Assembly: GCF_001830325.1 (NCBI RefSeq)
Contig: NZ_MHZG01000001.1
Location: 372,001-436,000 of the forward strand
Origin: Polynucleobacter sp. GWA2_45_21
GTDB lineage: Bacteria; Pseudomonadota; Gammaproteobacteria; Burkholderiales; Burkholderiaceae
Reading direction: 5' to 3'
Length of the DNA: 64,000 nucleotides
The position numbers and the translations under genes are program-made. Positions 1,752 through 63,663 of the stretch are shown piece after piece. Position 1 is the first letter of the stretch, and each line of letters begins with the position of its first letter. Under the pieces are notes generated by a model. That model was not told the origin of the DNA, searched no databases, and saw nothing but the letters and a program-made list of their open reading frames with translations.

Positions 1752-4372
1752 TTAGAGGCCACCCAATCTTTCACACCAGCTAATGCCGCGCCCAACTTGC
1801 TTGGGTCAGTACCGCCAGCCATCGCCATCTCTGGTTTGCCGCCACCCTTGCCACCAACCTGCTGGGCAACAAAGTTCACCAAGTCACCCGCTTTAACTTT
1901 GGCAATCGAATCTGCAGTCACGCCAGCAATGAGGCTGACCTTATCACCCTGCACAGAAGCCAAGACAATTGCGGCTGTTTTCAATTTCGCCTTTAAGGCA
2001 TCCATGGTTTCGCGAAGTACTTGCGCGTCTGCACCATCCAAACGAGCGGCTAAGACCTTGATACCGTTGACATCAATTGCTTGTGTCGCCAATTCATCAC
2101 CTTGGCTTGCAGCAAGCTTGGAATTCACTTTATCCAACTCACGCTCGGCTTGACGTAGGCTTTCTTGGAGTTGAGCAACACGATTTACTAAATCACCTGG
2201 ATGGGTTTTTAAGATTGTTGCTGCTTCGTTGATCTTATCTTCCATGCCTTGCAAGAAGTTCAAAGCGTTTCTGCCAGTGACCGCTTCAACACGGCGAATA
2301 CCTGCAGCAACACCACCCTCAGAAACAATCTTCAAGCTACCGATATCCCCAGTACGACCAACGTGGGTACCACCACAGAGCTCTTTAGAGCTACCGATTT
2401 CTAGAACGCGGACCTCGTCGCCATACTTCTCACCAAAGAGCATCATGGCGCCCGTTTTTTGCGCATCATCCAAAGACATTACTTTTCCGGAGGTCGCAGT
2501 ATTAGCAAGGATCTCCGCATTCACAATATCTTCTATGCGACGAATCTCTGCTGCAGTAATAGGTGCATTGTGAGTAAAGTCAAAACGGGTTTTACTGGCA
2601 TCCACCAAAGAACCCTTTTGCTGCACATGATCACCCAAGACTTCACGCAACGCTTTATGCAGGATATGCGTAGCACTGTGGTTGCGCATCGTTTCAGTTC
2701 TTTGTTCAATATCTACCAAGGCATTGATTGCATCGCCCACCTTGAGCTCGCCTTCTTGCACTTCACCTTGATGACCAAACACATCAGCCTGAATCTTGAA
2801 GGTATCTTCCACTGCGAAACGCACTGCCTCATTGCGCAACTCACCCTTATCACCAACCTGTCCACCAGATTCAGCATAGAAAGGGGTGTTATCTAATACG
2901 ATCACGGCGGCATCACCAGCCTTGACAGACTGCACGGCTGAGCCATCAACGTAGAGTGCTGTTACTTTAGCGCCCTCATGCTTCAGAGTGTCATAGCCAT
3001 GAAACTGGGTTGGTTTGCCGGAGTATTCCAGGCCTTGTGCCACTTTGAACTTGCCGGCTGCTCTTGCTTGATCGCGCTGCTTTTGCATCGCTAATTCAAA
3101 GCCTTCTGCATCAACTGTCACGTCACGCTCACGGCAAACATCGGCAGTTAAATCCAATGGGAAACCGAATGTATCGTGCAAACGGAAAGCAGTTTCACCA
3201 TCAACCGTCTTCGCACCGCCTGCAAGCGCACCTTCCAAAATCTCCATACCGTTAGCGATTGTCTGGAAGAAGCGCTCTTCTTCCTGCTTAATCACATCAC
3301 TTACTTTGTCCTTGGCAGCTTGTAACTCTGGATAAGAAAGCCCCATCTCTTTTACGAGGGCGGGAACAAGTTGATAGAAAAACGGTTTACGTGCACCCAA
3401 CTTGTAGCCATGACGAATTGCGCGGCGCGTAATACGGCGCAGGACATAGCCGCGCCCAGCATTACCTGGGATCACACCATCCACCACAATAAAACTACAT
3501 GCACGAATATGATCAGCAATCACCTTCAGTGAAGGGCTGTCAATATCGCAATTTCCGCCGCCAGCTGCATCAACTGCTTCTTTAGCAGCCTTGAGCAAAT
3601 TCACAAAGAGATCAATCTCATAGTTGGAATGCACGTGCTGCAATACTGCTGCAATACGCTCCAAGCCCATACCAGTATCGACGCTAGGCTTAGGCAAGGG
3701 ATGCATATTGCCCGCTTCGTCGCGGTTGAACTGCATGAACACGTTATTCCAGATCTCAATATAGCGATCACCATCCTCATCAGGGCTTCCTGGAGGGCCA
3801 CCAGCAATATGCGGGCCATGGTCATAGAAGATCTCGGTACAAGGACCACAAGGACCGGTGTCACCCATCATCCAGAAATTATCTGAAGCGTAACGCGCTC
3901 CCTTGTTATCGCCGATGCGAATAATGCGCTCAGCTGGTACACCAATTTGCTTATTCCAAATCTCATAAGCTTCGTCATCTTCCGCATACACGGTGACAAG
4001 TAGCTTTTCTTCTGGAAGCTTAAAGACCTCGGTAAGTAATTCCCAAGCAAATTGGATTGCATCCTTCTTAAAGTAATCCCCAAAAGAGAAGTTACCCAGC
4101 ATTTCAAAGAAGGTGTGATGACGGGCTGTATAGCCAACGTTATCTAGGTCATTATGTTTGCCACCCGCACGGATGCATTTTTGAGCAGTGGTTGCGCGGT
4201 TATAGGGACGCTTATCAAAACCCAAAAAGACGTCCTTAAACTGGTTCATCCCCGCATTTGTAAATAACAGGGTTGGGTCATCCCCTGGCACTACCGGGCT
4301 GGAGGCGACAATTTGATGGCCTTTTTGGGCGAAGAAGTCCAGGTATGCCTGGCGAATTTGGGAGACTTTCAT
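1748..4372 (-). CDS. alaS: Alanine--tRNA ligase
   Basis: Class II synthetase charging tRNA-Ala, with editing of Ser/Gly mischarging. At 874 aa it is full length. The class II catalytic core includes [19 protein letters not shown] near residue 75 and [14 protein letters not shown] near 240. The editing domain carries the zinc-binding [16 protein letters not shown] near 570 and [13 protein letters not shown] near 670. The C-terminal oligomerisation domain ends in the [15 protein letters not shown] signature. I place the start at 4372 ([14 protein letters not shown]), 12 codons inside the ORF-track start. MKVSQIR matches the family N-terminus, and a GATAAT hexamer ends 7 nt upstream with no Shine-Dalgarno between, which suggests a leaderless mRNA. 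Divergent from tctB. Confidence 0.97.
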
Positions 4373-4379
4373 GCGAATA

Positions 4380-4408
4380 ATTATCGCATTGGCACTAGTC
4401 GGGGGCAA
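4380..4408 (-). promoter_or_regulatory. alaS promoter abutting the start codon
   Basis: On the minus strand, TTGCCC (4408-4403), a 17-bp spacer and GATAAT (4385-4380) resemble a sigma-70 promoter. The -10 ends 7 nt before the alaS ATG, so the predicted transcript would begin at or within a base or two of the start codon. Confidence 0.6.
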
Positions 4409-4437
4409 ACCCTAGGCAAAGCGCCCTAATCCTGCCT

Positions 4438-4489
4438 TACAATCCTCCTACATTAATAAATAGATCGGCATTTGAGCCGATATAAGGAG
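4438..4489 (+). promoter_or_regulatory. tctB -10 candidate and ribosome binding site
   Basis: A TACAAT hexamer at 4438-4443 is a plausible -10. It would start transcription near 4450. AAGGAG at 4484-4489 lies 6 nt before a TTG codon at 4496, which decides the tctB start in favour of TTG 4496 over TTG 4472. Confidence 0.55.
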
Positions 4490-4495
4490 CTCAAC

Positions 4496-4954
4496 TTGAA
4501 AATTCGCAATCAACGGGATTTTGGCGCTGGAATCATGTACATGGTGATCGGCCTTTTCTTTGCAGGCATCGCTACTACCTATTCTTTGGGCACCGCGGCC
4601 AAGATGGGGCCTGGATATTTCCCGCTTGCCCTGGGAATACTCATGTTTTTATTGGGTTTACTTGTACTCGTTACCTCATTGAGGGCTAGTGCAGCTATAG
4701 ACCAAATCCCCAAATTTAATTGGCGGGTGATCGGCATTATTACCGGATCAATTTGTCTTTTTGGCATTTTGTTACCAACCATGGGAGTTTTGGTAGCGAT
4801 TTTTGCCCTGGTTTTTGCATCCTCCACAGCCAGCAAGGAATTTAGCTGGAAAGCAGCTACCCTGAATTCTATTGTGCTGATGGGATTTACTTACCTGGTG
4901 TTTATCGTTGGCCTTAAGCTCACGTTCCCAGTTTTACCGTTCTTTTTCGAATAA
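4496..4954 (+). CDS. tctB: Tripartite tricarboxylate transporter small subunit TctB
   Basis: Small membrane subunit of a TTT-family secondary transporter, which imports carboxylates together with the large permease TctA and a periplasmic TctC-type binding protein. The 152-aa product is strongly hydrophobic with about four membrane segments: near residues 8-28, 38-60, 78-100 and 125-145. The N-terminal MGPGYFPLALGILM patch is typical of the family. The start is a TTG at 4496 preceded by AAGGAG at good spacing; the ORF-track start at 4472 lies upstream of that ribosome binding site. tctA follows 18 nt later. No tctC lies next to the pair, so substrate specificity cannot be read here. Confidence 0.9.
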   Translation: MKIRNQRDFGAGIMYMVIGLFFAGIATTYSLGTAAKMGPGYFPLALGILMFLLGLLVLVTSLRASAAIDQIPKFNWRVIGIITGSICLFGILLPTMGVLVAIFALVFASSTASKEFSWKAATLNSIVLMGFTYLVFIVGLKLTFPVLPFFFE

Positions 4955-4972
4955 TCACCGGGAACCTGAAAA

Positions 4973-6475: not shown

Positions 6476-6498
6476 TTCCCGAAAGCTTCCCAGAAACG

Positions 6499-6526
6499 AG
6501 CCCGCAGTAGTTTGCGGGCTTTTTTC
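6499..6526 (+). terminator. Terminator after tctA
   Basis: An 8-bp stem AGCCCGCA/TGCGGGCT with a 6-nt loop is followed by an uninterrupted T-run from 6520. It lies 23 nt after the tctA stop and just before the glnS promoter region. Confidence 0.9.
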
Positions 6527-6559
6527 TTTCTGGGCGGGGGTTTTCTCTACAATGGGCGC

Positions 6560-8332
6560 ATGTCCCAAGATAGCAAACCCTCTAAAGTTCCTGCCAGCGC
6601 GCTTGCTGAGCCTTCTAACTTTTTGCGCCAGATCATTGACCATGATTTGGCGAGTGGCGCCTATCAGAACCGCAGTAGCCGTGATGGCCAAGCTATCCCC
6701 TCCATCATTACGCGCTTTCCCCCTGAGCCCAACGGCTACCTTCATATTGGTCACGCCAAAAGTATTTGCTTGAACTTTGGCTTAGCTGCTGATTACAACA
6801 ATCAAGCAGGTGGCGCCCGATGCAATATGCGTCTGGATGACACCAATCCAGTTAAAGAAGATATTGAATACGCCGATAGTATTTTGGATGCGGTCAAATG
6901 GCTTGGCTTTGATTGGGGATCACACCTGTATCACGCGAGTGATTACTTTGATCAGCTTTATGAGTTTGCAGAAATTCTGATTCAGAATGGCAAAGCCTAT
7001 GTCGATAGTCAAAGCGCGGATGATATTCATACCAATCGCGGCAACTTTGGCCAAGCAGGAAAAAATAGTCCTTATCGCGATCGCACTCCAGATGAGAATC
7101 TCGCTTTATTCCGCGAGATGCGTGATGGCAAATACAAAGATGGCGAACATGTTCTACGTCTAAAAATTGATATGGCGCATCCTAATATTGTGATGCGTGA
7201 TCCTGTGGTCTATCGCATTCGTCATACCGATCACCACCGGACTGGCAGTAAGTGGTGTATCTACCCTTTATATGATTTCACGCACTGTATTTCCGATGCA
7301 CTGGAAAATGTCTCACACTCGATCTGCACTTTGGAGTTTGAAAATAATCGCCCGCTCTACGATTGGATTGTTGCCTCACTAGCAGAACTGGGGATCTTCA
7401 AAAATCCAGTGCCACATCAGTATGAATTTGCCCGCCTTAACTTAACTTACACCATCACTAGCAAACGTAAGTTGCTGCAATTAGTCGAAGAAAAACATGT
7501 TGATGGCTGGGATGACCCGCGAATGCCAACCATCGTCGGCATTCGTCGCAGAGGCTATACACCAGAGAGTATTCGCTTGTTCTGCGAGCGCATCGGGGTT
7601 TCTAAAGCGGATAGCTGGATCGACATGAGCACGCTGGATCAAGCCTTGCGTGATGATCTTGAAGCCAAGGCACCACGTGCCACAGCGGTTCTGAAGCCAC
7701 TCAAACTCGTCATTGAAAATTTTGATGCCTCTGCAAGTGAACCTTGCTCAGCACCGCGCCATCCTCAGCACCCTCAATGGGGCAATCGAGAATTTCATTT
7801 CACAAAAGAATTGTGGATTGAGGAAGATGACTTTATGAAAGAGCCCATCAAGGGATTCTTCAGACTCTATCCACCAATCGGTGATCAGCCCGGTGGACGC
7901 GTGCGTTTGCGCCATGGATTTGTGATTGAGTGCACTGGCTTTGAAGTAGACGCCAATGGCAATGTGATTCAAGTGAACGCGACTCACTTCCCAGATAGTA
8001 AGAGCGGTACTCCTGGTTCAAACAATTACAAGGTCAAGGGCAATATTCATTGGGTCAGCGCAGCTGAGGCTGTGCCTGCGCAAGTGCGTCTCTATGATCA
8101 TCTGTTTAATGATCCACATCCAGATAGTGGTGATAAGAATTTCCTTGATGCGATTAACCCAAGCTCTAAGCAAACGATTACTGCCTACTTAGAGCCTTGC
8201 ATGAAAGATGCTAAAGCAGAAGATCGCTTCCAGTTTGAGCGCCACGGTTACTTTGTGGCGGACCAAAGCGATTCTAAGCCGGGTCAGCCTGTATTTAATC
8301 GTACGGTTGGTCTTAAGGATTCTTGGAAATAG
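6560..8332 (+). CDS. glnS: Glutamine--tRNA ligase
   Basis: Class I synthetase charging tRNA-Gln directly (590 aa). The HIGH-type motif is in PPEPNGYLHIGHAKS, near residue 58 from this start. The KMSKS-equivalent is ITSKRKL near 302. The DDTNPVKEDIEYADSI and WDDPRMPTIVGIRRRGYTPE signatures are GlnRS-specific, and the C-terminal anticodon-binding beta-barrels follow. I choose ATG 6560 (MSQDSK) rather than 6512, because the extra 16 residues would be translated from the tctA terminator hairpin. TACAAT at 6548-6553 ends 6 nt before this ATG with no Shine-Dalgarno, suggesting a leaderless mRNA. The last 20 nt overlap the convergent epimerase-like gene. Confidence 0.96.
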   Translation: MSQDSKPSKVPASALAEPSNFLRQIIDHDLASGAYQNRSSRDGQAIPSIITRFPPEPNGYLHIGHAKSICLNFGLAADYNNQAGGARCNMRLDDTNPVKEDIEYADSILDAVKWLGFDWGSHLYHASDYFDQLYEFAEILIQNGKAYVDSQSADDIHTNRGNFGQAGKNSPYRDRTPDENLALFREMRDGKYKDGEHVLRLKIDMAHPNIVMRDPVVYRIRHTDHHRTGSKWCIYPLYDFTHCISDALENVSHSICTLEFENNRPLYDWIVASLAELGIFKNPVPHQYEFARLNLTYTITSKRKLLQLVEEKHVDGWDDPRMPTIVGIRRRGYTPESIRLFCERIGVSKADSWIDMSTLDQALRDDLEAKAPRATAVLKPLKLVIENFDASASEPCSAPRHPQHPQWGNREFHFTKELWIEEDDFMKEPIKGFFRLYPPIGDQPGGRVRLRHGFVIECTGFEVDANGNVIQVNATHFPDSKSGTPGSNNYKVKGNIHWVSAAEAVPAQVRLYDHLFNDPHPDSGDKNFLDAINPSSKQTITAYLEPCMKDAKAEDRFQFERHGYFVADQSDSKPGQPVFNRTVGLKDSWK

Positions 8333-9200
8333 TTTTCAGAAACTCTGCGACGCTGGGATAGCGTAGCGGAGTTTTTAATTCTGCCAGTCGTGTATTCGTT
8401 ACGCGCCGAGACTCACGCATAAAAGACCACAGCATGGGAGATACGATCTTCTCCAACTGCGCAGCAGGCATTCTTGGTGGCCGATCTAAGCCAAAGGCAT
8501 CAGCCACTTCATCAAAGTAATCGCCCATCCTAGTTTCACCGCCGTCACAGGCATTAATGACACGCTGTGGTTTACCGTGATAAACGGCAGCACAAACCAA
8601 TCTCGCCAAATCATCACTCTGAATATGGTTTGAGTAGGCATCCTCATCTGCGATTAAGGCGGGTGTTCCCGCTTGAATACGCTCAACTGGCAATCGGTCA
8701 GCAGCATAAATACCTGGCACACGCAAAATCGTCAGGGCTACACCGTGAGCTGGGGCCCAAAGGCGGAGGCAATTTTCTGCATCCACTCTTCGCGTAGCCC
8801 TCTCACTTTGGGGGTTAACAGGGGTCACTTCACTCACCCTGCCACCTGCGTGATCTCCATAAACACCGGTAGTGCTCACATAAATCAAGCGCCCAACAGT
8901 ATCAGAGCCTTGGGATAAAATTCGGAGAAGGTTGCGAGTTCGGCAATCACGATGACCTGTATTTTGGGGTGGTGCCAGGTGGATCACGGTTTGCGCTAAT
9001 CCACTTAAACGCCACAAGCTATCGGGCTTATCCAGATCCCCCAAAATCGGAATCGCGCCAACCGCTCTCAACTCCTGAAAACGGGTTTTCTGGGAAGTTA
9101 AGGCATATACCCGATGACTTCGGGCAAGCTGCTTGGCAACACGAAGGCCAATGTCGCCGCAGCCAATGATCAGGATTCGAGGTTTACCAAAAGATTGCAT
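8313..9200 (-). CDS. NAD-dependent epimerase/dehydratase family protein (YeeZ-like)
   Basis: An extended short-chain dehydrogenase fold protein (295 aa) resembling E. coli YeeZ. The N-terminal Rossmann dinucleotide motif is GCGDIGLRVAKQL near residue 13. A YVSTTGVYGDHAG segment near 107 carries the SDR-like Ser/Tyr region, although a canonical YxxxK is not obvious; the ERATRRVDAE stretch follows. No substrate can be assigned. It is convergent with glnS and its 3' end overlaps glnS by 20 nt. TACGAT (9213-9208) ends 7 nt before the ATG, another candidate leaderless start. The neighbouring plus-strand flavin reductase begins 37 nt away. Confidence 0.8.
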   Translation of the reverse strand: MQSFGKPRILIIGCGDIGLRVAKQLARSHRVYALTSQKTRFQELRAVGAIPILGDLDKPDSLWRLSGLAQTVIHLAPPQNTGHRDCRTRNLLRILSQGSDTVGRLIYVSTTGVYGDHAGGRVSEVTPVNPQSERATRRVDAENCLRLWAPAHGVALTILRVPGIYAADRLPVERIQAGTPALIADEDAYSNHIQSDDLARLVCAAVYHGKPQRVINACDGGETRMGDYFDEVADAFGLDRPPRMPAAQLEKIVSPMLWSFMRESRRVTNTRLAELKTPLRYPSVAEFLKTISKNP

Positions 9201-9236
9201 AGGTCACATCGTAACGATTTATTGAAAGGAATGAGA

Positions 9237-10277
9237 GTGTCTTACCAAGTCACGCTCAAGGCGAGCGGCAAACAATTTACCGTCCAGAAGGATCAAACCC
9301 TACTTGAAGCAGCGCTCCAACAAGGCATCACGCTCCCGTATGGCTGTAAAAACGGTGCCTGCGGATCCTGTAAGGGCAAGGTTTTAGAAGGCGAGGTGGA
9401 GCACGGTCAACATAGTGCTGCCGCCTTAAGCCCTGCTGATGAAGCCGCTGGGGGCACCTTGTTTTGCTGTGCCCATCCTAAGTCAGACCTTTTGATCGAG
9501 GCTCGTGAAGTTCAAGGTGCCGGCGATATCGCCATCAGAAAGGTGCCTTGTCGCGTGAATGCGATTACCAAACCAAGCACTGATGTGGCGATTCTCAAAC
9601 TGCAATTACCAGCTGCCGAGCGCTTTCAATTTCTGGCGGGTCAGTATTTAGAATTCCTCCTCAAAGATGGACAGCGCCGCGCCTACTCCATTGCCAATGC
9701 GCCCGATCAAGAGGGGCCTCTCGAGTTACATATTCGCCACTTACCGGGCGGGCTCTTTACCGACTTCGTTTTTGGTGCAAAAGATCCCGCATTAAAAGAA
9801 AAAGATATCCTGCGCTTTGAGGGTCCATTAGGTAGCTTCTTCCTCAGAGAGGACTCCAAGAAGCCCATCATTTTTGTTGCGGCAGGCACTGGCTTTGCAC
9901 CCATCAAATCCATTGTTGAGCAAATGCAGCTCAAAAAGATCCAGCGCCCGATTCATTTGTACTGGGGTGGACGGCGCCCTAGCGACCTCTATTTGGATGA
10001 GCTCTGTCAGTCATGGGCAAGAGATATTCCTAATTTCAAGTACATCCCCGTCGTTTCCGATGCACTTCCAGAAGATCAATGGACTGGGCGCACAGGCTTT
10101 GTGCATCAAGCCGTGATCGCCGACTATTCTGACCTTAGCCCCTACCAGGTCTATGCCTGCGGCGCCCCTGTCATGGTCAACGCAGCCCGCCAGGACTTTT
10201 CTTCTCAGTGCAAGCTACCTGAGGAGGAGTTCTTTGCAGACTCCTTTACCAGCGCAGCTGATCTTGCAACAAGCTAG
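9237..10277 (+). CDS. 2Fe-2S ferredoxin-fused NAD(P)H-flavin reductase (annotated in relatives as CDP-6-deoxy-delta-3,4-glucoseen reductase)
   Basis: A soluble electron-transfer flavoprotein (346 aa). The N-terminal plant-type [2Fe-2S] domain has the cluster motif CKNGACGSCKGKV near residues 36-48 and a fourth Cys in TLFCCAHP near 78. It is followed by an FAD-binding ferredoxin-reductase domain (RRAYSIANAP near 145) and an NAD(P)-binding domain (FVAAGTGFAPIKSIVEQ near 215, YACGAPVMV near 305). The order matches phenol-hydroxylase or AscD-like reductases. The start is GTG 9237 because AAGGA sits 6 nt upstream; ATG 9231 is too close to that site. The partner oxygenase or acceptor is not visible. 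The deoxysugar name used in databases is probably only a homology label. Confidence 0.85.
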   Translation: MSYQVTLKASGKQFTVQKDQTLLEAALQQGITLPYGCKNGACGSCKGKVLEGEVEHGQHSAAALSPADEAAGGTLFCCAHPKSDLLIEAREVQGAGDIAIRKVPCRVNAITKPSTDVAILKLQLPAAERFQFLAGQYLEFLLKDGQRRAYSIANAPDQEGPLELHIRHLPGGLFTDFVFGAKDPALKEKDILRFEGPLGSFFLREDSKKPIIFVAAGTGFAPIKSIVEQMQLKKIQRPIHLYWGGRRPSDLYLDELCQSWARDIPNFKYIPVVSDALPEDQWTGRTGFVHQAVIADYSDLSPYQVYACGAPVMVNAARQDFSSQCKLPEEEFFADSFTSAADLATS

Positions 10278-10328
10278 CCTGCTAAGCGTGATAATAGAAA
10301 CTTCATTTGATCTCACTTCGCACACGAT

Positions 10329-11522: not shown

Positions 11523-11541
11523 AAGTATCTAGATGGAATGT

Positions 11542-11568
11542 AATAAAGGAGCCTTAGGCTCCTTTATT
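11542..11568. terminator. Bidirectional terminator between argD and ispH
   Basis: A perfect 12-bp inverted repeat AATAAAGGAGCC/GGCTCCTTTATT with a TTA loop lies between the convergent argD and ispH stops. It can terminate both transcripts. Confidence 0.85.
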
Positions 11569-11576
11569 GTTTATGG

Positions 11577-12518: not shown

Positions 12519-12521
12519 CAG

Positions 12522-12968
12522 TTACAGAATCGCAACGATTTCAGCTTCAAAGGTAACAGGCCTTCCAGCAAGCGGATGATTGAAATCAAACCATGCACCT
12601 TCTTCATTAATGGATTGCAGTACCCCGGCATATTGAGCGCCACCAGGCGCATTAAATTCAATCACGTCGCCAGGATTAAATTCCACATCATCATCGCGCC
12701 CTTCTTTGAGCGCCCCCAAAGAAACCCACTGAATTAATTCTTCCTTACGCTCACCAAAGCTTTCTTCAGGCGGCAGCAAGGCACTTTTCTTTTCACCCAC
12801 AGCTAACCCGATCAACACCTTTTCAAAACAAGGCGCAAATTGTCCAGAACCCATCAACACCGTCGCAGGGCGATCAATAAAAGTATTGATGTAATCATCC
12901 CCGCTGGGCAAAATCAGCCGATAGTTGAGGGTCAAGAAGGAATTGGGCAAAACCGTAAGCTTAGTCAT
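12522..12968 (-). CDS. fkpB: FKBP-type peptidyl-prolyl isomerase, FkpB/SlpA type
   Basis: Small cytoplasmic FKBP (148 aa) of the SlpA/FkpB class, a peptidyl-prolyl isomerase with chaperone activity. The FKBP half-domain contains GSGQFAPCFEKVLIGLAVGEK near residues 33-53. An inserted IF-like flap (LLPPEESFGER ... FNAPGGAQYAGVLQS) follows, then NHPLAGRPVTFEAEIV, the NHPLAGxxL signature of this group. I choose ATG 12968 (MTKLTVLPNSF) over the ORF-track 13004. The inner start matches family length and TACAAT ends 6 nt before it, again implying a leaderless mRNA. Divergent from radC across only 30 bp; ispH follows. Confidence 0.9.
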   Translation of the reverse strand: MTKLTVLPNSFLTLNYRLILPSGDDYINTFIDRPATVLMGSGQFAPCFEKVLIGLAVGEKKSALLPPEESFGERKEELIQWVSLGALKEGRDDDVEFNPGDVIEFNAPGGAQYAGVLQSINEEGAWFDFNHPLAGRPVTFEAEIVAIL

Positions 12969-12998
12969 AAGGTAATTGTATCTAGGCCCGACGCGAGC

Positions 12999-13700
12999 GT
13001 GCACTCGCCGATTACCGATTGGCCAAAAATAGAGCAGCCACGCGAGAAGCTGCGCACCCTTGGAGCGGCAGCCCTAACTGATGCCGAATTACTGGCGATC
13101 TTTCTGCGGGTTGGCGTCAAAGGCAAAACCGCTGTGGCCCTAGCTGAAGATCTTCTCCATCATTTTGGCAATTTGCCACGCCTCCTATCCTGCGCTCCAG
13201 AAGAATTAACCCAGATTCATGGCATGGGTATTTCCAAATGGTCTCAAATTCAGGCAGCGTACGAGCTCGTCAAGCGCAGTCTTGAGGAATCCCTTTCTCA
13301 GGAGTCAGTTTTCTCGTCACCAAGCTATGTCAAAGAGTTCTTGCAAGCCCGATTTGGGCGTCTACCGCATGAAGTCTTTCTTTGCCTATACCTTGACTCC
13401 CGCCTACACCTGATTGAGTGTCAGGAGCTCTTTAGGGGCTCCTTGACCCATACAGCTGTCTACCCCCGAGAAATCCTCAAGGAAGCCCTTGCCAGGAATG
13501 CTAGCGCCCTTATCGTGGCCCATAACCACCCTAGCGGCAACCCACTGCCCAGCCTTGCCGACCAGGAATTAACCAAAACGCTATCTAAAGCCTTGCAGTT
13601 GGTGGATATTCCGCTCCTAGATCACTGCATAGTTAGCGATAGCGGATTTTTCTCATTTTCAGATTCAGGCCTTATGAAAAATGACTTTAATCATAAGTAA
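12999..13700 (+). CDS. radC: RadC/JAB-domain DNA repair-associated protein
   Basis: RadC-family protein (233 aa). An N-terminal helix-hairpin-helix region (PREKLRTLGAAALTDAELLAIFLRVG, LTQIHGMGISKWSQIQAAYEL) precedes a JAB/MPN metalloprotease-like domain. The zinc motif is visible as AHNHPSGNPLPSLADQELT, an HxH...D pattern, near residue 172, with the upstream Glu in the SLTHTAVYPREILKEAL context. Biological role is unsettled; the historical radiation-sensitivity phenotype of E. coli radC was reassigned. I choose GTG 12999 (HSPITDWPKIEQPREK) because the ORF-track extension to 12840 would overlap all of fkpB's 5' end antisense and lacks family similarity. rpmB-rpmG follow, as in E. coli. Confidence 0.9.
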   Translation: MHSPITDWPKIEQPREKLRTLGAAALTDAELLAIFLRVGVKGKTAVALAEDLLHHFGNLPRLLSCAPEELTQIHGMGISKWSQIQAAYELVKRSLEESLSQESVFSSPSYVKEFLQARFGRLPHEVFLCLYLDSRLHLIECQELFRGSLTHTAVYPREILKEALARNASALIVAHNHPSGNPLPSLADQELTKTLSKALQLVDIPLLDHCIVSDSGFFSFSDSGLMKNDFNHK

Positions 13701-13798
13701 TCACTAACTTTTTGCTTATTTTTGACCCATATTGGCGGCTAAACCGCTAAATCCTTAAAACTAAAGCGAATTAGGGCTAGATCAAAGTACTCGGAGAC

Positions 13799-13807
13799 TG
13801 ATACAAT
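13799..13807 (+). promoter_or_regulatory. Extended -10 promoter for rpmB-rpmG
   Basis: TG-A-TACAAT forms an extended -10 element about 31 nt upstream of the rpmB ATG. No good -35 is visible at 17 bp. The 138-nt gap after radC otherwise holds only the rpmB leader with GGAG at 13828-13831. Confidence 0.6.
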
Positions 13808-13838
13808 CTTCTTTTTTCGCAATTAATGGAGTTATGTC

Positions 13839-14072: not shown

Positions 14073-14083
14073 GGAGCGCACAA

Positions 14084-14251: not shown

Positions 14252-14282
14252 TTTATCGATTCGATATTTATTTGCTGCAAAT

Positions 14283-17803: not shown

Positions 17804-17854
17804 GCCCACAATATAATTGATGGTTACCCCGAAAGCGACCCTGAAAGCGATTTA

Positions 17855-21685: not shown

Positions 21686-22180
21686 ATGAGCGCAAACCTA
21701 TCATTTCTTCGTTATCTAGCAATTGCAATCATTACGCTATTGCTAGACCAACTGAGTAAATGGTCTGCCTTAAGCAATCTTCAATTAGGCGTACCGGAAC
21801 CGGTCCTGCCATTTATGAGCTGGTTGCTGCTATTTAACCCAGGAGCTGCGTTTTCTTTTTTAGCGCAGAGCTCGGGGTGGCAGCGCTGGTTCTTTACGGT
21901 CTTAGGCTTATTAGCCTCAGCTTATATCCTTTGGTTGCTACACAAGAGTCTGGCCGACAAAATGCTCTGCTGGGCTCTCAGTCTCATTCTAGGGGGCGCT
22001 CTAGGGAACGTCTTGGATCGCATCATGTATGGTGCTGTAGTAGATTTTATTGACCTACATTACGCCAATTGGCATTGGCCCGCATTCAATATTGCCGATA
22101 GCGCCATTTGTGTTGGTGCTGGCCTCATTATTTGGGGCGAGCTTCGCAAGTCATTTGGCAAAACGCCTCAATCCTATTAA
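21686..22180 (+). CDS. lspA: Lipoprotein signal peptidase (signal peptidase II)
   Basis: Inner-membrane aspartyl protease that cleaves prolipoprotein signal peptides after lipidation (164 aa). Four membrane segments are visible. The catalytic aspartates lie in the conserved GGALGNVLDRIMYGAVVDFID region (Asp near 113) and AFNIADSAICVGA (Asp near 140). The NPGAAFSFLA motif near residue 52 is also family-specific. It follows ileS after 26 nt and precedes coaBC by 9 nt, so it is part of one long plus-strand operon. Confidence 0.96.
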   Translation: MSANLSFLRYLAIAIITLLLDQLSKWSALSNLQLGVPEPVLPFMSWLLLFNPGAAFSFLAQSSGWQRWFFTVLGLLASAYILWLLHKSLADKMLCWALSLILGGALGNVLDRIMYGAVVDFIDLHYANWHWPAFNIADSAICVGAGLIIWGELRKSFGKTPQSY

Positions 22181-22189
22181 GCTGGCCCC

Positions 22190-27556: not shown

Positions 27557-27701
27557 GAGAAACATTCTAAACACAGATGTAAAAATTTGGATTTGAGGGC
27601 TTTGTTGCAAAAAACCATCAAGAAAGGCCTCCTAACCCCATATTGGGGCATTTTTCGATAAAAAAAGGGGTCTTTAGCAGTAACTATCTTTACCCAACCC
27701 C

Positions 27702-32117: not shown

Positions 32118-32270
32118 CTTTAAACCTTGCTATATAAAAATTACAAAATACGATTAACTGAAAATCTGCGTGGGTTCGCCAAATTTGTAAGCTGACTCAC
32201 CAAAACCCAAGATTTTACATTAAAGGACTAAAAAAGCCCAGTCGCTTGATAAATAGGGGAAAATTAGCCC

Positions 32271-33824
32271 ATGAATCTGCTTTCTGCTGCCGCCAAGGTT
32301 AGCTCCCTCACCATGCTCTCTAGGATCACCGGACTCCTCCGGGAGACCCTGATTGCCCGTAGTTTTGGGGCCTCTGAGTGGACGGATGCCTTTAATGTGG
32401 CCTTCAGACTGCCTAATTTACTACGCCGACTCTTTGCTGAAGGGGCCTTTTCTCAGGCATTTGTACCCATTTTGGGGGAAATTTCCAGCAAGGGTGACGT
32501 AAAACAGTCCCAAATCCTCGTAAATGCCGTTGCCACGCTCTTATTCTGGGCTTTGTTGCTTACGGTACTCCTTGGAGTGATCGGCGCCCCCTTGTTGATT
32601 TTGGTGATTGCTACAGGCTTTGAGGGCGGACCAGCATACGAGGCAAGCGTAGTCATGACCCGAATCATGTTCCCTTACATTGGCCTTATTTCCATGGTTT
32701 CTCTGTCAGCTGGGATCCTCAATACTTTTGGCCGCTTCGCCATTCCGGCGTTTACCCCAGTTTTACTCAATTTAGCCCTGATCGGCAGCGCCATATTTTT
32801 GGCGCCCCACTTGGATCAACCGATTTATGCCTTGAGCATTGGCGTGCTCGTGGGTGGCTTCTTGCAACTGGCGATTCAGGTTCCAGCGCTATCCCGCCTC
32901 GGCTTATTGCCTAAAGTAGGTCTCTTGCCAGGCGCCATCAAAGCAGCCATTCAAAATCCAGATGCAAGGCGCGTCATGAAACTCATGGGGCCTGCGGTGT
33001 TTGCAGTCTCTGTTGCCCAAATTTCTCTGATCATCAATACCAATATTGCTTCTCGCTTGCAAACCGGTAGCGTGTCTTGGCTCTCTTACGCGGATCGTCT
33101 GATGGAGTTTCCTACGGCCCTATTAGGCGTAGCACTAGGAACCGTCTTACTGCCAAGTCTCAGTAAAGCAAATGCAAAAAATGATTTAGTGCATGCTGGT
33201 GAACTTCTTATTTGGGGATTGCAGCTCACCTTTTTGCTAGCGGCCCCTTGCGCAATTGCTCTCTTTATTTTTGGTGAGCCACTAGCAGCGGTGCTGTATC
33301 ACTACGGCAAGTTCAACGCCATGGATGTCCTAATGACACAGCGTGCACTAGCAGCTTATGGCGTTGGACTGATTGGTCTCATTTTGGTGAAGATCCTGGC
33401 TCCCGGCTTTTATTCACGACAAGATATCCGCACACCAGTGAAAATTGGTTTGTTGGTCTTGGTTGCGACCCAATTGGCTAATTTAGTTTTTGTTCCTTGG
33501 TTAGGCCATGCCGGCCTCGCCCTTTCCGTGGGTGCTGGTGCCTGCCTAAATGCAACGCTACTCTGGGTTGGCCTCCATCGTCGTGGCGCTCTACCTAGCG
33601 CTGCATGGTTAAAGTACTTAGGGCAGCTCTTACTTGCCTTAATTCCTTTTGCCTTTCTCTTGTATTACGCCGCTACTGCACACGATTGGATTGAGCTGCA
33701 ATCTAGTCCATGGATTCGCATTGGATTAGTGGCTGCATGGCTAGCTGCTGCAGCTGTGGTTTATTTTGCAGCCCTATGGCTTGTTGGCATTCGCTGGCAA
33801 AAATTCCTGCGTCATGCAAAATAG
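32271..33824 (+). CDS. murJ: Lipid II flippase MurJ
   Basis: MOP-superfamily membrane protein (517 aa, about 14 membrane segments) that flips the peptidoglycan precursor lipid II. The N-terminus AAAKVSSLTMLSRITGLLRETLIARSFGAS and AFNVAFRLPNLLRRLFAEGAFSQAFVP near residue 45 are diagnostic of MurJ/MviN. The SWLSYADRLMEFPTALLGVALGTVLLPSLSK segment near 265 is the mid-protein signature. GAAAAT ends 6 nt before ATG 32271, a weaker example of the start-proximal -10 pattern. The SirB1-like gene follows after 5 nt. Confidence 0.95.
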   Translation: MNLLSAAAKVSSLTMLSRITGLLRETLIARSFGASEWTDAFNVAFRLPNLLRRLFAEGAFSQAFVPILGEISSKGDVKQSQILVNAVATLLFWALLLTVLLGVIGAPLLILVIATGFEGGPAYEASVVMTRIMFPYIGLISMVSLSAGILNTFGRFAIPAFTPVLLNLALIGSAIFLAPHLDQPIYALSIGVLVGGFLQLAIQVPALSRLGLLPKVGLLPGAIKAAIQNPDARRVMKLMGPAVFAVSVAQISLIINTNIASRLQTGSVSWLSYADRLMEFPTALLGVALGTVLLPSLSKANAKNDLVHAGELLIWGLQLTFLLAAPCAIALFIFGEPLAAVLYHYGKFNAMDVLMTQRALAAYGVGLIGLILVKILAPGFYSRQDIRTPVKIGLLVLVATQLANLVFVPWLGHAGLALSVGAGACLNATLLWVGLHRRGALPSAAWLKYLGQLLLALIPFAFLLYYAATAHDWIELQSSPWIRIGLVAAWLAAAAVVYFAALWLVGIRWQKFLRHAK

Positions 33825-34717: not shown

Positions 34718-34723
34718 TATAAT
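34718..34723 (+). promoter_or_regulatory. Consensus -10 abutting miaA start
   Basis: A perfect TATAAT ends 5 nt before the miaA ATG (34729). The spacer is GTCTT and there is no Shine-Dalgarno. This places the predicted +1 at, or one base from, the A of the start codon. No convincing -35 is seen. Confidence 0.65.
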
Positions 34724-41327: not shown

Positions 41328-41344
41328 TTCATTAAACTCACGCC

Positions 41345-47282: not shown

Positions 47283-48305
47283 CTAAAGGTTTGTTGGGGA
47301 ACTCAACGCGCCTGACAAGAGCTTAGAGGTGATATCAACGATCGGAATCACCCGATCGTATGCCATACGAGTTGGGCCAATCACACCAAGCGTTCCAACA
47401 ACCTGTCCATCCACACTGTAGGGCGCACTAATGACCGCCAAATCTTCGTAAGGTAGCAAATCACTCTCGCCCCCAATAAAGATCTGAATACCATCAGCAT
47501 GACTAGATACGTCCAGTAACTGCATGAGTACCGACTTTTGCTCCAGCATATCGAACATCTTGCGCAGCTTGTCTAAATTGGTACTGAGGTCACCGACATT
47601 GAGTAAACGACGCTCACCCGATAGCAGCATGTCTCCTTGGCCCATGCCGTAGTCACTCACACCACTGTGGAGCGCCAAGGCCATCAAGCCAGAGATATCG
47701 CTTCGCAAGTTATCCAGATCGGAGGCCAAATGTGCACGCACCTCAGCAAAGCTTTTACCGGCGAACTGCGTATTAATGTAATTGCCTGCTTCTACCAATT
47801 GGCTTGGGGTGTAGTCCTGTGTAGTAGGCAGTATGCGGTTTTGAACATCGCCTTCAGGAGTCACCATAATCAGCAAGATCTTGCCTTCACCCAGCCGCAA
47901 GAACTCGATGTGCTTGAATACTTGGGCCCGCTTCGGCGTCATCACCACCCCAGCAAAATGGGTCAAATTAGACAGAATTTGGGCGGCGGAGTTCATTACC
48001 CTTTGCGGAGAATCTGGCAAAAGGCCTTTTTCCATCTCACGGGTGGCAATTTCTTCTAGGGGGCGAACGGTCACCATCGTATCTACAAAGAGGCGATAAC
48101 CTCTTGGGGTGGGTATGCGACCAGCCGAGGTATGGGGGCTAGTCACTAAGCCCATCTCCTCTAAATCCGCCATCACATTGCGAATCGTGGCCGCAGAAAG
48201 ATCCAATCCCGAGAACCGCGATAGGGTACGTGAGCCAATAGGCTGCCCCTCTTCGATATAGCGCTCGATGAGGGTTTTCAGTAAGGCGCGTGAACGATCA
48301 TCCAT
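47283..48305 (-). CDS. hrcA: Heat-inducible transcription repressor HrcA
   Basis: Repressor that binds CIRCE operators and is tuned by GroEL (340 aa). The N-terminal winged helix has [63 protein letters not shown], the HrcA hallmark. A GAF-like domain and dimerisation region follow, including [22 protein letters not shown] and FIGGE. TAAAAT (48321-48316) ends 10 nt before the ATG. I saw no TTAGCACTC-N9-GAGTGCTAA operator upstream of hrcA, grpE or dnaK, so its targets (probably groESL) lie outside the window. Divergent from nadK. Confidence 0.95.
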
Positions 48306-48342
48306 AGTGGAAGGGATTTTATGCGTATGGTTTAATCGTTAT

Positions 48343-49248
48343 ATGTTAAGCCCATCCCCAAATTCCAGCAAAAAGGCGTTTAGCCGGGTTGCACTCGTCG
48401 GCAAATATCAGGCCGACGGTATGCAAGAGCGCCTTAAAGACCTAGCCAGCCTTCTGGCCGAGCAAGGCTGTGAGGTTTTTGTCGAAAGCGCTACCGCAAG
48501 CCATTTGGGGCTAACTGCCTACCCAATCAAGAAAGTCGAGGAGTTTTCGGATGCCATCGATCTAGCAGTTGTTTTGGGTGGTGATGGCACGATGCTTGGG
48601 ATTGGCCGTCAGTTGGCAGGCAGCAAAGTCCCTCTAGTTGGCATCAATATGGGTCGCTTGGGTTACATGACCGATATCCCAATTCAAAACGTTCAAACAG
48701 TCTTGCCGCAAATTATTGCTGGTGAATATGAAGCTGACACGAGGACCCTACTCGATGCAGTTGTCATGCGCAATGGCAAACAGATTAATCAAGCCCTCGC
48801 ATTAAATGATGTTGTTGTAAATCGTTCCGGAATTTCAGGAATGGTCGAACTTGCAGTCCGCGTTAATGGCTCATTCATGTACAACCAACGCTCTGATGGC
48901 TTGATTGTATCGACCCCAACTGGCTCAACCGCCTACGCACTCTCTGCTGGCGGACCTATTTTGCATCCGCGCGTTGCTGGAATTCTGTTAGCCCCAATTG
49001 CCCCGCACTCTTTATCTAATCGCCCTATCGTATTGCCACAAGATATTGTGGTGAGCATTGGGGTGGTGGATGGCAGAGAGGTAATTGTGAACTTTGATAT
49101 GCAATCGCAAACAGACTTGCAAACAGGCGACACTATTGAAGTTAGTCAGTCTCAAAAAACGATCACCCTACTTCACCCTCGCAGTCATAGTGATTACAAA
49201 ACCTTGCGAGAAAAATTACATTGGAATGAGTATCCATCGACATTCTGA
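48343..49248 (+). CDS. nadK: NAD kinase
   Basis: Phosphorylates NAD to NADP (301 aa). The ATP/NAD motif [37 protein letters not shown] is near residue 74, and the NE/D-type [11 protein letters not shown] near 155 and [20 protein letters not shown] near 190 complete the signature. I choose ATG 48343 over the ORF-track 48268. TG-G-TTTAAT at 48328-48336 is an extended -10 ending 6 nt before it, and the upstream ORF part overlaps hrcA antisense. The hrcA-nadK-recN arrangement is conserved in proteobacteria. Confidence 0.95.
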
Positions 49249-49274
49249 TGTCGAAATTTTCGGTACGCTAAGGC

Positions 49275-50945: not shown

Positions 50946-50949
50946 GTTT

Positions 50950-53766: not shown

Positions 53767-53807
53767 TTCTCTATATTAATCCGACTCTAAATTGAAACCG
53801 CAGAAGC

Positions 53808-53837
53808 TTGGCGAGTAAGCAAGGGCTGACGGATAAT
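53808..53837 (+). promoter_or_regulatory. yhdP promoter abutting the start codon
   Basis: TTGGCG (53808-53813), an 18-bp spacer and GATAAT (53832-53837) form a reasonable sigma-70 promoter. The -10 ends 7 nt before the yhdP ATG, so a leaderless transcript is predicted for this operon. Confidence 0.6.
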
Positions 53838-53844
53838 AGAGCCC

Positions 53845-58002: not shown

Positions 58003-58018
58003 ATTCCAGGCTAATAAG

Positions 58019-58852: not shown

Positions 58853-58876
58853 TACAGAAAGTTCAGCTAAATTAAG

Positions 58877-60367: not shown

Positions 60368-60374
60368 TACGGCT

Positions 60375-60380
60375 TAAAAT
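60375..60380 (+). promoter_or_regulatory. -10 element abutting aroG start
   Basis: TAAAAT ends 6 nt before the aroG ATG (spacer AGCCGT) and there is no Shine-Dalgarno. aroG could therefore have its own leaderless transcript in addition to any read-through from tldD. Confidence 0.55.
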
Positions 60381-60386
60381 AGCCGT

Positions 60387-61511
60387 ATGAGCCAACAAAA
60401 CACTAATCCCGCAAACTGGTACGCTGCCGTCGACAAAACGTCAGACACAGATGATCAACGCATTCACAACATTACTGTTCTGCCACCGCCAGAGCATTTG
60501 ATTCGCTTTTTCCCGATCTCGGGAACGCCGACTGAGGCATTGATTAGCAAAACGCGTAAAAAGATTCGCGACATCATTCATGGAAAAGATGATCGCTTGT
60601 TAGTCATTATTGGGCCTTGCTCGATTCACGATCCTAGCGCTGCTGTTGAGTACTGCCAACGACTACTTGCTGAGCGCGATCGTTTTGCAGGCGAACTTGA
60701 AATTGTGATGCGTGTCTATTTTGAAAAGCCACGCACGACAGTGGGTTGGAAAGGTTTGATTAATGATCCGTACTTGGACGAGAGCTATCGCATTGAAGAA
60801 GGTTTGCGGATTGCACGTCAAGTGCTGATGGAAATCAATCGCCTCGGCATGCCAGCTGGTAGCGAATTCTTAGATGTTATTTCTCCACAATATATTGCCG
60901 ACCTGATTTCTTGGGGCGCCATCGGAGCACGTACAACCGAAAGCCAAGTTCACCGTGAACTAGCATCAGGTCTTTCTGCGCCAATCGGATTTAAGAATGG
61001 TACCGACGGCAACATCAAGATCGCCACTGATGCGATTCAAGCAGCTAGCCGTCCACACCACTTTTTATCTGTGCATAAGAATGGCCAGGTTTCTATTGTG
61101 GAGACTAAAGGCAATAAAGACTGTCACGTTATTTTGCGTGGTGGTAAAGAGCCAAACTATGAAGCGCAGTATGTTCAAGCAGCCTGCTCCGAGCTAGCAG
61201 CAGCAAAGCTTCCAGCCAGTTTGATGGTTGACTTGTCGCATGCAAACTCCAGCAAAAAACATGAGCGTCAAATTGTGGTGGCAGAAAATATTGCTGAGCA
61301 AATTGAATCTGGCTCAAATCAAATTTTTGGAGTGATGATTGAGAGCCACCTGAATGATGGTGCGCAAAAATTCACACCTGGAAAAGATGATCCAAATAAG
61401 TTGGAATACGGAAAGAGCATTACCGATGCCTGCATTAACTGGGAAGATTCAGTCAATGTATTGCAACGCTTAGCATTAGCCGTAAAGAATCGTAGAAAAG
61501 CGAAGAAATAA
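60387..61511 (+). CDS. aroG: 3-deoxy-7-phosphoheptulonate synthase, class I (AroF/G/H type)
   Basis: First step of the shikimate pathway, joining PEP and erythrose-4-phosphate (374 aa). Signatures are LLVIIGPCSIHDPSAAVEYC near residue 71, RVYFEKPRTTVGWKGLINDPYLDESYRIEEGL near 110, AIGARTTESQVHRELASGLSAPIGFKNGTDG near 178, and MVDLSHANSSK near 278. Class I AroG/F/H enzymes are feedback-inhibited by aromatic amino acids, but which one acts here cannot be read from memory of the residues. It ends before two tandem hairpins. Confidence 0.95.
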   Translation: MSQQNTNPANWYAAVDKTSDTDDQRIHNITVLPPPEHLIRFFPISGTPTEALISKTRKKIRDIIHGKDDRLLVIIGPCSIHDPSAAVEYCQRLLAERDRFAGELEIVMRVYFEKPRTTVGWKGLINDPYLDESYRIEEGLRIARQVLMEINRLGMPAGSEFLDVISPQYIADLISWGAIGARTTESQVHRELASGLSAPIGFKNGTDGNIKIATDAIQAASRPHHFLSVHKNGQVSIVETKGNKDCHVILRGGKEPNYEAQYVQAACSELAAAKLPASLMVDLSHANSSKKHERQIVVAENIAEQIESGSNQIFGVMIESHLNDGAQKFTPGKDDPNKLEYGKSITDACINWEDSVNVLQRLALAVKNRRKAKK

Positions 61512-61521
61512 GATGTAAGAA

Positions 61522-61543
61522 AATAAAGCAAAGATGCTTTATT
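61522..61543 (+). other. AT-rich hairpin after aroG
   Basis: A perfect 9-bp inverted repeat AATAAAGCA/TGCTTTATT with an AAGA loop lies 10 nt after the aroG stop. It has no long T-run of its own and directly precedes the stronger terminator at 61549-61580. Confidence 0.6.
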
Positions 61544-61548
61544 CATTC

Positions 61549-61580
61549 AAAAAGAGACTATTTATTTAGTCTCTTTTTTT
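61549..61580. terminator. Terminator shared by aroG and the cobalamin adenosyltransferase gene
   Basis: A 12-bp AAAAAGAGACTA/TAGTCTCTTTTT stem with a 6-nt loop is followed by a T-run on the plus strand and TTTTTG on the minus strand. It overlaps the stop codon and last codons of the convergent minus-strand gene (stop at 61562-61564), so the hairpin is partly coding. Confidence 0.88.
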
Positions 61581-62131
61581 TCATGTTTCCAGAGAACATC
61601 TTGGCCGCCTGCCGCACGATTGAGAACACGCGCCAATACAAACAACAAATCGGATAAGCGATTGACGTATTGACGAGGAGCATCGTACAAAGGCTCTTCC
61701 CAACCCAAACGCACAATCGAACGCTCGGCACGCCTGCAAACTGTTCGACATACATGGGCCTGAGCGGCAGCACGTGTCCCACCTGGGAGAATAAATTCAG
61801 TCAAGGGAGGCAAAGTTGCATTGTATTTTTCTAGCCAAACATCCAGTTGGGCTACATGCTCAGGTTTAAGCAAGGTGTAATTAGGAATGCAAAGCTCGCC
61901 ACCCAGGTCAAATAAATCATGCTGCACTTGCAAAAATAAAGCTTTTAACTCCTCAGCAAGGCTCTCAGGGATCGATTCAGTCATCAAAACACCGATTTCG
62001 GAGTTCAATTCATCTACATCGCCCATGGCGCAAATGCGCAAATGATCCTTTTCTACTCGGCTACCATCACCAAGCCCGGTCATGCCTGCATCACCAGTTC
62101 TGGTGGCTATTTTTGAAAGTCGATTTCCCAT
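61562..62131 (-). CDS. PduO-type ATP:cob(I)alamin adenosyltransferase
   Basis: Adenosylates cob(I)alamin to give coenzyme B12 (189 aa, PduO/MMAB class). The ATP-binding N-terminus NRLSKIATRTGDAGMTGLGDGSRVEKDHLRICAMGDVDELNSEIGVL is diagnostic. The C-terminal AAQAHVCRTVCRRAERSIVRL near residue 125 and YVNRLSDLLFVLARVLN near 155 carry the conserved Arg and helix. The start is fixed by a perfect TATAAT (62143-62138) ending 6 nt before ATG 62131, again leaderless. Its presence implies use of adenosylcobalamin, for example by methylmalonyl-CoA mutase or a B12-dependent reductase elsewhere. Divergent from glcD. Confidence 0.92.
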   Translation of the reverse strand: MGNRLSKIATRTGDAGMTGLGDGSRVEKDHLRICAMGDVDELNSEIGVLMTESIPESLAEELKALFLQVQHDLFDLGGELCIPNYTLLKPEHVAQLDVWLEKYNATLPPLTEFILPGGTRAAAQAHVCRTVCRRAERSIVRLGWEEPLYDAPRQYVNRLSDLLFVLARVLNRAAGGQDVLWKHEKKETK

Positions 62132-62137
62132 GAACTA

Positions 62138-62159
62138 ATTATAGGTAAATGGCTAAAAT
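62138..62159. promoter_or_regulatory. Back-to-back -10 elements of two divergent genes
   Basis: Minus strand: a perfect TATAAT (62143-62138) ends 6 nt before the adenosyltransferase ATG. Plus strand: TAAAAT (62154-62159) ends 7 nt before an ATG at 62167 in the glcD frame. The two start codons would be separated by only 35 bp containing both -10 boxes. Confidence 0.6.
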
Positions 62160-62166
62160 GATTCTT

Positions 62167-63663
62167 ATGAATATGGTGACCCCACCCCCCGAGCTCGCGG
62201 CCATTACCGCCCTTCAATCCAAATTGGTATCGGCCTTGCGCCCCATTCTTCCAGAGCATGCTTTGCTTTGGGAGCCTGAGGACACGATTCCCTATGAATG
62301 TGATGGTCTAGCAGCCTATCGACGCATGCCCCTAGCAGTAGCCTTACCGGAGACTGAGGAGCAGGTTTCCCAGATCCTAAAGACCTGCTTTGAAATGCAG
62401 GTACCGATCGTTCCACGCGGTTCTGGCACTGGCTTATCCGGTGGCGCCATGCCTATTTCTCAAGGCTTAGTGCTCTCACTGGCTAAACTCAAAAAGATTA
62501 TCAGCATTGATCCCTTTACCAGAACTGCGGTTGTGCAACCCGGTGTTCGCAATTTAGCTATCTCAGAAGCAGTTGCTCATCTTGGCCTGTATTACGCTCC
62601 AGACCCCTCTTCACAGATTGCCTGCTCCATTGGTGGCAATGTGAATGAAAACTCTGGCGGGGTGCATTGCCTGAAATATGGGCTCACGCTTCACAACGTA
62701 TTAAAAGTCCGTGGCATTTTGATGAACGGCGAGATTGTGGAATTTGGCAGTCTTGCTCCAGACTCCCCAGGGCTTGATTTATTAGCAATCGTGATGGGCA
62801 GCGAAGGCATGCTTGCAGTAGTGACTGAAGTCACGGTCAAGCTGATTGCTAAGCCAAAATTAGCTCGCGTCATCATGGCCAGTTTTGACGATATTGAAAA
62901 AGGTGCAGATGCAGTTGCAGCCATCATCGCTGCCGGCATCATTCCTGCTGGCTTAGAAATGATGGATAAAGCCACTACTCGTGCCGTAGAAGAATTCGTT
63001 CATGCAGGGTACGACCTTGAAGCTGAGACCATTCTCCTGTGCGAGTCCGATGGCACGCCTGAAGAGGTTGCAGAAGAAATTGAGCGCATGACCAAGGTGC
63101 TTGAACTAGCAGGTGCAAGCGGTATTCAGATTTCTCAAAATGAAGCGGAGCGCCTGAAATTTTGGAGTGGTCGCAAAAATGCCTTCCCTGCAGCTGGACG
63201 CTTAGCGCCTGATTACTACTGTATGGATGGAACAATCCCTCGCAGAAATATTGGCACTCTACTCAGACGCATTCAGGTTATGGAAAAGAAATATGGTCTT
63301 GCTTGCTTGAATGTATTTCATGCGGGCGACGGCAATATGCATCCACTCATTTTATTTAACGGCGCCGATCAAGATGAGTGGCATCGCGCTGAAGAATTCG
63401 GCACTGAAATTTTAGAAGCCTGTGTCGAGCTTGATGGCACGATTACTGGTGAGCATGGCGTTGGAATTGAAAAGATTAATTCCATGTGCGTTCAATTTGG
63501 TGAAGGTGAACGTGAATCTTTCTGGGGTGTTAAAGCCGCATTTGACTCTGAACGATTATTAAATCCTGATAAGGCTATCCCCACATTAAATCGCTGCGCT
63601 GAATATGGTCGTATGCGCATTAGTGGTGGTAACTTGCCGCATCCTGAGTTGGAGCGCTTCTAA
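62167..63663 (+). CDS. glcD: FAD-linked oxidase GlcD (glycolate oxidase large subunit)
   Basis: FAD-binding subunit of glycolate oxidase (498 aa from this start), which oxidises glycolate to glyoxylate with GlcE and GlcF. The PCMH-type FAD domain has VPIVPRGSGTGLSGGAMPISQGLVLSLAKLKKI near residue 78 and QIACSIGGNVNENSGGVHCLKYGLT near 146. The C-terminal oxidase domain has LNVFHAGDGNMHPLILFN near 373 and the conserved GTITGEHGVGIEK near 415. ORF-track start 62149 is possible, but TAAAAT ends 7 nt before ATG 62167 (MNMVTPPPELAA) and favours that start. glcE follows with a 1-nt overlap. A D-lactate or other 2-hydroxyacid role is the alternative. Confidence 0.92.
   Translation: MNMVTPPPELAAITALQSKLVSALRPILPEHALLWEPEDTIPYECDGLAAYRRMPLAVALPETEEQVSQILKTCFEMQVPIVPRGSGTGLSGGAMPISQGLVLSLAKLKKIISIDPFTRTAVVQPGVRNLAISEAVAHLGLYYAPDPSSQIACSIGGNVNENSGGVHCLKYGLTLHNVLKVRGILMNGEIVEFGSLAPDSPGLDLLAIVMGSEGMLAVVTEVTVKLIAKPKLARVIMASFDDIEKGADAVAAIIAAGIIPAGLEMMDKATTRAVEEFVHAGYDLEAETILLCESDGTPEEVAEEIERMTKVLELAGASGIQISQNEAERLKFWSGRKNAFPAAGRLAPDYYCMDGTIPRRNIGTLLRRIQVMEKKYGLACLNVFHAGDGNMHPLILFNGADQDEWHRAEEFGTEILEACVELDGTITGEHGVGIEKINSMCVQFGEGERESFWGVKAAFDSERLLNPDKAIPTLNRCAEYGRMRISGGNLPHPELERF

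Follow-up and report, generated by a model that had tools for sequence, protein, structure and literature searches.

Conserved -10 boxes directly before start codons point to leaderless mRNAs in Polynucleobacter sp. GWA2_45_21

Among bacteria, leaderless genes are usually associated with actinobacteria and Deinococcus. In Deinococcus-Thermus, about 30% of open reading frames (ORFs) carry an adjacent -10 region, and reporters there showed leaderless expression (PMC12340547). Similar signals have been described in betaproteobacteria. Zheng et al. (2011; PMC3160421) describe genes led by a TA-like signal, some 10 bp ahead of the start codon, for 9 of 71 beta-proteobacterial genomes, in which they make up 2.8–10.6% of genes. 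In Cupriavidus metallidurans CH34, 5' ends were mapped and leaderless mRNAs made up 4.67% of the primary starts (PMC7563307). In Burkholderia cenocepacia J2315, 72 mapped starts coincided exactly with the start codon and a further 42 fell within 10 nt, 24 of these being tRNAs (PMC4603805). In this study, -10-like boxes ending 5–7 nt before start codons were analyzed in a 64,000-nt stretch of the genome of Polynucleobacter sp. GWA2_45_21 (contig NZ_MHZG01000001.1, positions 372,001–436,000; the whole stretch is called the window). A first-pass annotation had listed 13 such hexamers and predicted widespread leaderless mRNAs. All 13 were correct in coordinates, sequence and spacing, for glcD provided that the start is at 62167. 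Judged from the sequence, the start-adjacent boxes are very probably ordinary housekeeping (sigma-70 type) promoters giving leaderless mRNAs.

The architecture was the same as that of Deinococcus-Thermus, with a lower bound of 6–7% of genes in place of about 30%. It also resembled the TA-led genes of Zheng et al., in that the box replaces the Shine-Dalgarno sequence and the fraction of genes lies within their range. Unlike the present analysis, the main text of that survey does not name Polynucleobacter and gives no gene-by-gene conservation for the lineage. C. metallidurans and B. cenocepacia belong to the same family, Burkholderiaceae; leaderless mRNAs were mapped in both, whereas here they are predicted from sequence. 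The leaderless mRNAs of B. cenocepacia have a TA-rich motif directly upstream, as here. Transcription regulators were enriched in Cupriavidus and Burkholderia, whereas the cases in the window were mostly genes of core metabolism and translation (purN, alaS, glnS, miaA, panB, and nadK). The main texts of PMC7563307 and PMC4603805 do not name purN, clpS, or nadK. Since leaderless genes were already described and mapped in betaproteobacteria including Burkholderiaceae, the phenomenon is of a known kind. The first-pass annotation had been unsure whether it was described for this lineage; it is reported for Cupriavidus and Burkholderia, and among open papers, taken without supplements, none joining Polynucleobacter with leaderless genes was found. 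In the same literature, no description was found of the gene-specific conservation over a family or order, nor of the short divergent gaps.

The source assembly consisted of 2.11 Mb in 19 contigs with a completeness of 99.7%; a 16S rRNA gene was not found across the 19 contigs, probably because of an assembly gap. The clpA of the window shares 98% identity with that of Polynucleobacter sp. UK-Mo-2m-Kol15, which agrees with the assignment to this genus of freshwater betaproteobacteria in the Burkholderiaceae. The genome sample comprised 864 kb of this genome, including 800 kb beyond the window, with 703 ATG genes. A single in-house gene-calling script was used throughout. It was blind to upstream signals, so the choice of start was independent of the tested motif. 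For the window count, the clpS and glcD starts were fixed manually at the positions that the first-pass annotation had chosen. For the genus comparison, about 60 kb of DNA syntenic with the window was taken from each of 13 relatives; aroG and the cobalamin adenosyltransferase gene lay outside it. The wider comparison used 80 clpA neighbourhoods from beta- and gammaproteobacteria, together with 800 kb of sequence from elsewhere in the family and order. A first comparison of clades was biased, because its loci were centred on clpA and hence contained clpS, and separate genome stretches were used instead.

In the genome sample, TANNNT ended exactly 6 nt before the ATG in 60 of the 703 genes. The counts at offsets 5 and 7 were 11 and 12, and the mean over offsets 10–40 was 15.3. 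The enrichment over background that had been expected at this position was therefore present genome-wide. The binomial P for the peak was ~1e-18, with the offset mean as the null and the genes taken as independent; one repeated upstream region was counted more than once, which left the picture unchanged. As a control, 300 kb of E. coli K-12 was run through the same code and showed no such peak (2 at offset 6, background 4.5). The peak was confined to ATG starts and was missing from the 73 GTG/TTG starts, though these were few. The excess amounted to 6.4% of ATG genes with TANNNT and 6.9% with a weight matrix. This is a lower bound, because degenerate -10 boxes and mis-called starts escape. The prediction of widespread leaderless mRNAs has to be scaled accordingly, to about 6–7% of genes or above. 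A one-motif expectation-maximization (EM) model was dropped, as it merged the Shine-Dalgarno and -10 signals. A three-part EM separated the two, and its total fraction was uncalibrated (25–37% in shuffled sequences), so that the fraction was taken from the offset excess only. Large-genome members of the family showed an excess of about 1% in separate genome stretches, on small numbers. Polynucleobacter likely differs in rate from its family.

In the window, 15 of 48 ATG starts had a -10-like hexamer (.A...T with at most two mismatches to TATAAT) at 5–7 nt; in windows of the same width placed further upstream, the mean was 2.9. The window was denser in boxes than the rest of the sample (14/48 vs 80/655, Fisher P 0.003), and the first-pass annotation had therefore looked at a rich stretch. 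An AT-leaning genome might yield many TANNNT hexamers before ATG by chance, from which the annotation had picked. The richness of the window speaks for this, as do the roughly 3 of 48 starts at which chance alone would place a box there. The peak in the genome sample, together with the conservation in relatives described below, refuted chance for the whole set, for which it is scarcely credible. The single weak cases recN, SirB1-like, and murJ could be chance.

Shine-Dalgarno sequences were found at 1.5% of boxed starts vs 24.5% of all ATG starts in the genome sample. The base before the ATG was a pyrimidine in 79% of boxed genes vs 58% of the rest. A pyrimidine is the usual base preceding a transcription start. 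The candidate rpmB gene (13839) served as an internal contrast: TACAAT lies well upstream of its start and is followed by GGAG. Since the same box stands here before a leader and a Shine-Dalgarno site, it is the distance and not the motif that differs. The first-pass annotation had described Shine-Dalgarno sites at downstream operon genes. They were present at clpA and rpmG, while dnaJ had none in the 30 nt before its called GTG start (43337). It had also held that most boxed genes were first genes of a unit. This held for about 8 of the 13, which had a divergent neighbour; panB and aroG lie 17–19 bp behind a gene on the same strand.

The boxes were conserved within the genus. Where TANNNT stood at offset 6 or 7, it was retained there in 17/17 orthologs with 94–100% protein identity, 55/55 with 80–94%, and 14/28 below 80%. 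TANNNT at offsets 10–36 was kept in 61/122, 36/114, and 6/65, respectively. With a looser definition of the -10 box, the site was kept in 99 of 107 orthologs below 93% protein identity. These counts are descriptive and are not tests, because the sister genomes are non-independent. Among relatives at 75–93% identity, mean identity was 97% in the -10 box, 65% in the six spacer bases, and 84% in the three bases before the box. The -35 position reached 75%, compared with 59–64% on either side. This profile indicated that a promoter footprint is conserved; from the -10 box to the ATG, conservation mainly concerns the length.

An A/T-rich hexamer might also work in translation, as an AU-rich unstructured stretch or an S1-binding element that replaces the Shine-Dalgarno sequence on leadered mRNAs. 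A/T-rich signals of this type before the start occur in Bacteroidetes and further groups, as discussed in PMC3160421, and many starts here lack a Shine-Dalgarno sequence. A translation signal would not readily explain a T-A-n-n-n-T pattern at a single offset with so few at its neighbours, nor why the bases immediately preceding the -10 box and the -35 position are conserved along with it. It also fits poorly with a box and an offset that are kept in GC-rich relatives with unrelated flanks. This explanation is considered very improbable.

If the boxes were real promoters and the true start codon lay further downstream, the mRNAs would be leadered and the called ATG unused. The ab initio starts, the two candidate starts of glcD, and the variable N-termini of clpS leave room for this. 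The ATG 5–7 nt after the box was itself kept across relatives, even where the N-terminal residues of clpS vary, which argues against a downstream start, and this possibility is judged very improbable. The first-pass annotation had placed +1 at the A of the ATG or directly beside it. This prediction gained support from the sharp offset, the conserved box, length, and -35 position, the pyrimidine at -1, the scarcity of Shine-Dalgarno sites, and the rpmB contrast.

Conservation of some boxes reached outside the genus. For purN, a box at 6–7 nt, mostly TAAAAT, was found in 25/26 other members of the family, most with 62–70% GC. For clpS, TANANT at 5–7 nt was found in 24/27 other Burkholderiales, 8/17 other betaproteobacteria, and 2/25 gammaproteobacteria. 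For nadK, a -10-like box at 6–7 nt was found in 17/28 genomes belonging to different families within the order. In these three cases, each gene could contribute several candidate ATGs, and the chance level was slightly raised by this; the counts at other offsets (means of 0.03–0.7 per offset) allow for it. Most of the genomes with this conservation were GC-rich, and boxes of this kind seldom arise in them by chance. No such peak was found for alaS in 28 genomes outside Polynucleobacter, and glnS had the box in 0/23. Because purN, clpS, and nadK reach far and alaS and glnS do not, part of the set appears ancient and part gained in or near the genus. It is fairly probable that certain betaproteobacterial genes have stably kept leaderless starts (clpS, purN, and nadK, over family-to-order distance), and that alaS and glnS were switched to it within the small-genome Polynucleobacter, where it is accompanied by divergent genes 3–60 bp apart with promoters partly inside the coding sequence of the neighbour.

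Under the promoter reading, a -10 element 5–7 nt before the start codon would make RNA polymerase start on, or within 1–2 bases of, the A of the ATG. The resulting mRNA would be leaderless, and translation would begin at its 5'-terminal AUG with no Shine-Dalgarno sequence involved, as in leaderless mRNAs elsewhere. At least 6–7% of the genes in this Polynucleobacter would be organised in this way, the layouts of purN, clpS, and nadK being old and widely shared with other betaproteobacteria and those of alaS and glnS having arisen in the genus or close to it. Directly observed are the boxes with their fixed offset and conservation, and the missing Shine-Dalgarno sequences. The deep conservation of purN, clpS, and nadK and the leaderless mRNAs mapped in two other Burkholderiaceae also favour this reading. 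Several points weigh against this reading. The match to TTGACA in the -35 hexamers was no better than in other genes, the -35 being degenerate, so that promoter identity rests on the -10 box and on conservation. Part of the conservation on the -35 side may be protein-coding constraint, with divergent neighbours sharing the DNA. Gene starts were called ab initio, and a second, upstream promoter may make leadered mRNA in some genes. The sigma factor, the position of the transcription start, and leaderless translation were inferred.

The set offers strong, testable genes in a cultivable freshwater betaproteobacterium, with a layout that would have lasted across family or order for some genes and been gained recently by others. 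Selection for leaderless starts, be it through regulation, compact genomes, or translation under stress, becomes comparable within one class. Annotation of start codons is also aided, as a -10 box 6 nt upstream would mark the right ATG.

Short divergent gaps were frequent in this genome. Divergent pairs less than 60 bp apart numbered 22/103, compared with 0/44 in E. coli, 2/40 in the sample of the rest of the family, and 1/37 in the order sample, the comparison samples being small. A -10-like box at 5–7 nt was found at 39% of ATG starts in gaps below 60 bp vs 12% in gaps above 120 bp. The shortest divergent gaps were 3–26 bp, which places the promoter inside the coding sequence of the neighbour. 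Short gaps may be a natural consequence of both genes doing without a leader.

In some pairs less than 60 bp apart, both genes were boxed. Examples of short pairs are 8313–10277, 12522–13700, 47283–49248, and 61562–63663 in the window, and L012:6304-8300, L012:8374-10236, and L037:287-2646 elsewhere in the genome sample. A near-identical upstream sequence (tttacagttatatttacatta..agtgttaatata) stood before ATGGAA at 2–3 places (L003:19186, L030:7739, and L003:10274). A repeated element or paralogous gene that carries a -10 box next to its start is the probable source; this is the repeated upstream region counted more than once above.

The boxes of the window are listed in Table 1. Gene names were mostly backed by NCBIfam; fkpB and glcD were below the curated cut-offs, and the YeeZ-like protein had no NCBIfam match. 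No Rfam elements or tRNAs were found in the window.

Table 1. Start-adjacent -10 boxes in the window, with their distance to the ATG and their retention in orthologs of the genus.
Gene	Box	Position (strand)	Distance to ATG (nt)	ATG	Retention in genus	Remark
alaS	GATAAT	4380..4385 (-)	7	4372	6/6, same offset	
glnS	TACAAT	6548..6553 (+)	6	6560	10/10	
YeeZ-like	TACGAT	9208..9213 (-)	7	9200	11/12	
fkpB	TACAAT	12975..12980 (-)	6	12968	11/12	
purN	TATATT	17810..17815 (-)	6	17803	14/14	
coaBC	TAAGCT	22178..22183 (+)	6	22190		absent from first-pass list
clpS	TAGAAT	27564..27569 (-)	7	27556	13/14	
murJ	GAAAAT	32259..32264 (+)	6	32271	12/14	weak box
SirB1-like	CAAAAT	33817..33822 (+)	7	33830	12/14	absent from first-pass list
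miaA	TATAAT	34718..34723 (+)	5	34729	10/10	
panB	TAAACT	41333..41338 (+)	6	41345	11/12	
hrcA	TAAAAT	48316..48321 (-)	10	48305	10 closer relatives, same offset	
nadK	TTTAAT	48331..48336 (+)	6	48343	12/12, same offset	upstream TG (TGGTTTAAT)
recN	TACGCT	49264..49269 (+)	5	49275	closer relatives only	possible weak box; absent from first-pass list
glnE	TAATAT	53773..53778 (-)	6	53766	12/12	
yhdP	GATAAT	53832..53837 (+)	7	53845	10/10	protein identity 29–82%
aroG	TAAAAT	60375..60380 (+)	6	60387		
cobalamin adenosyltransferase (PduO-type)	TATAAT	62138..62143 (-)	6	62131		
glcD	TAAAAT	62154..62159 (+)	7	62167		alternative start 62149

Relatives with as little as 82% amino acid identity still had the coaBC box at an unchanged offset. 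TTGGCA lies 17 bp upstream of it, and the site either adjoins the preceding gene or overlaps with it. The box of miaA was kept in orthologs despite largely differing flanks. The glcD gene diverges from the cobalamin adenosyltransferase gene with a start-to-start gap of 35 bp. The hrcA and nadK genes diverge over 37 bp (window 48305–48343), and for hrcA a short leader of about 4 nt is predicted.

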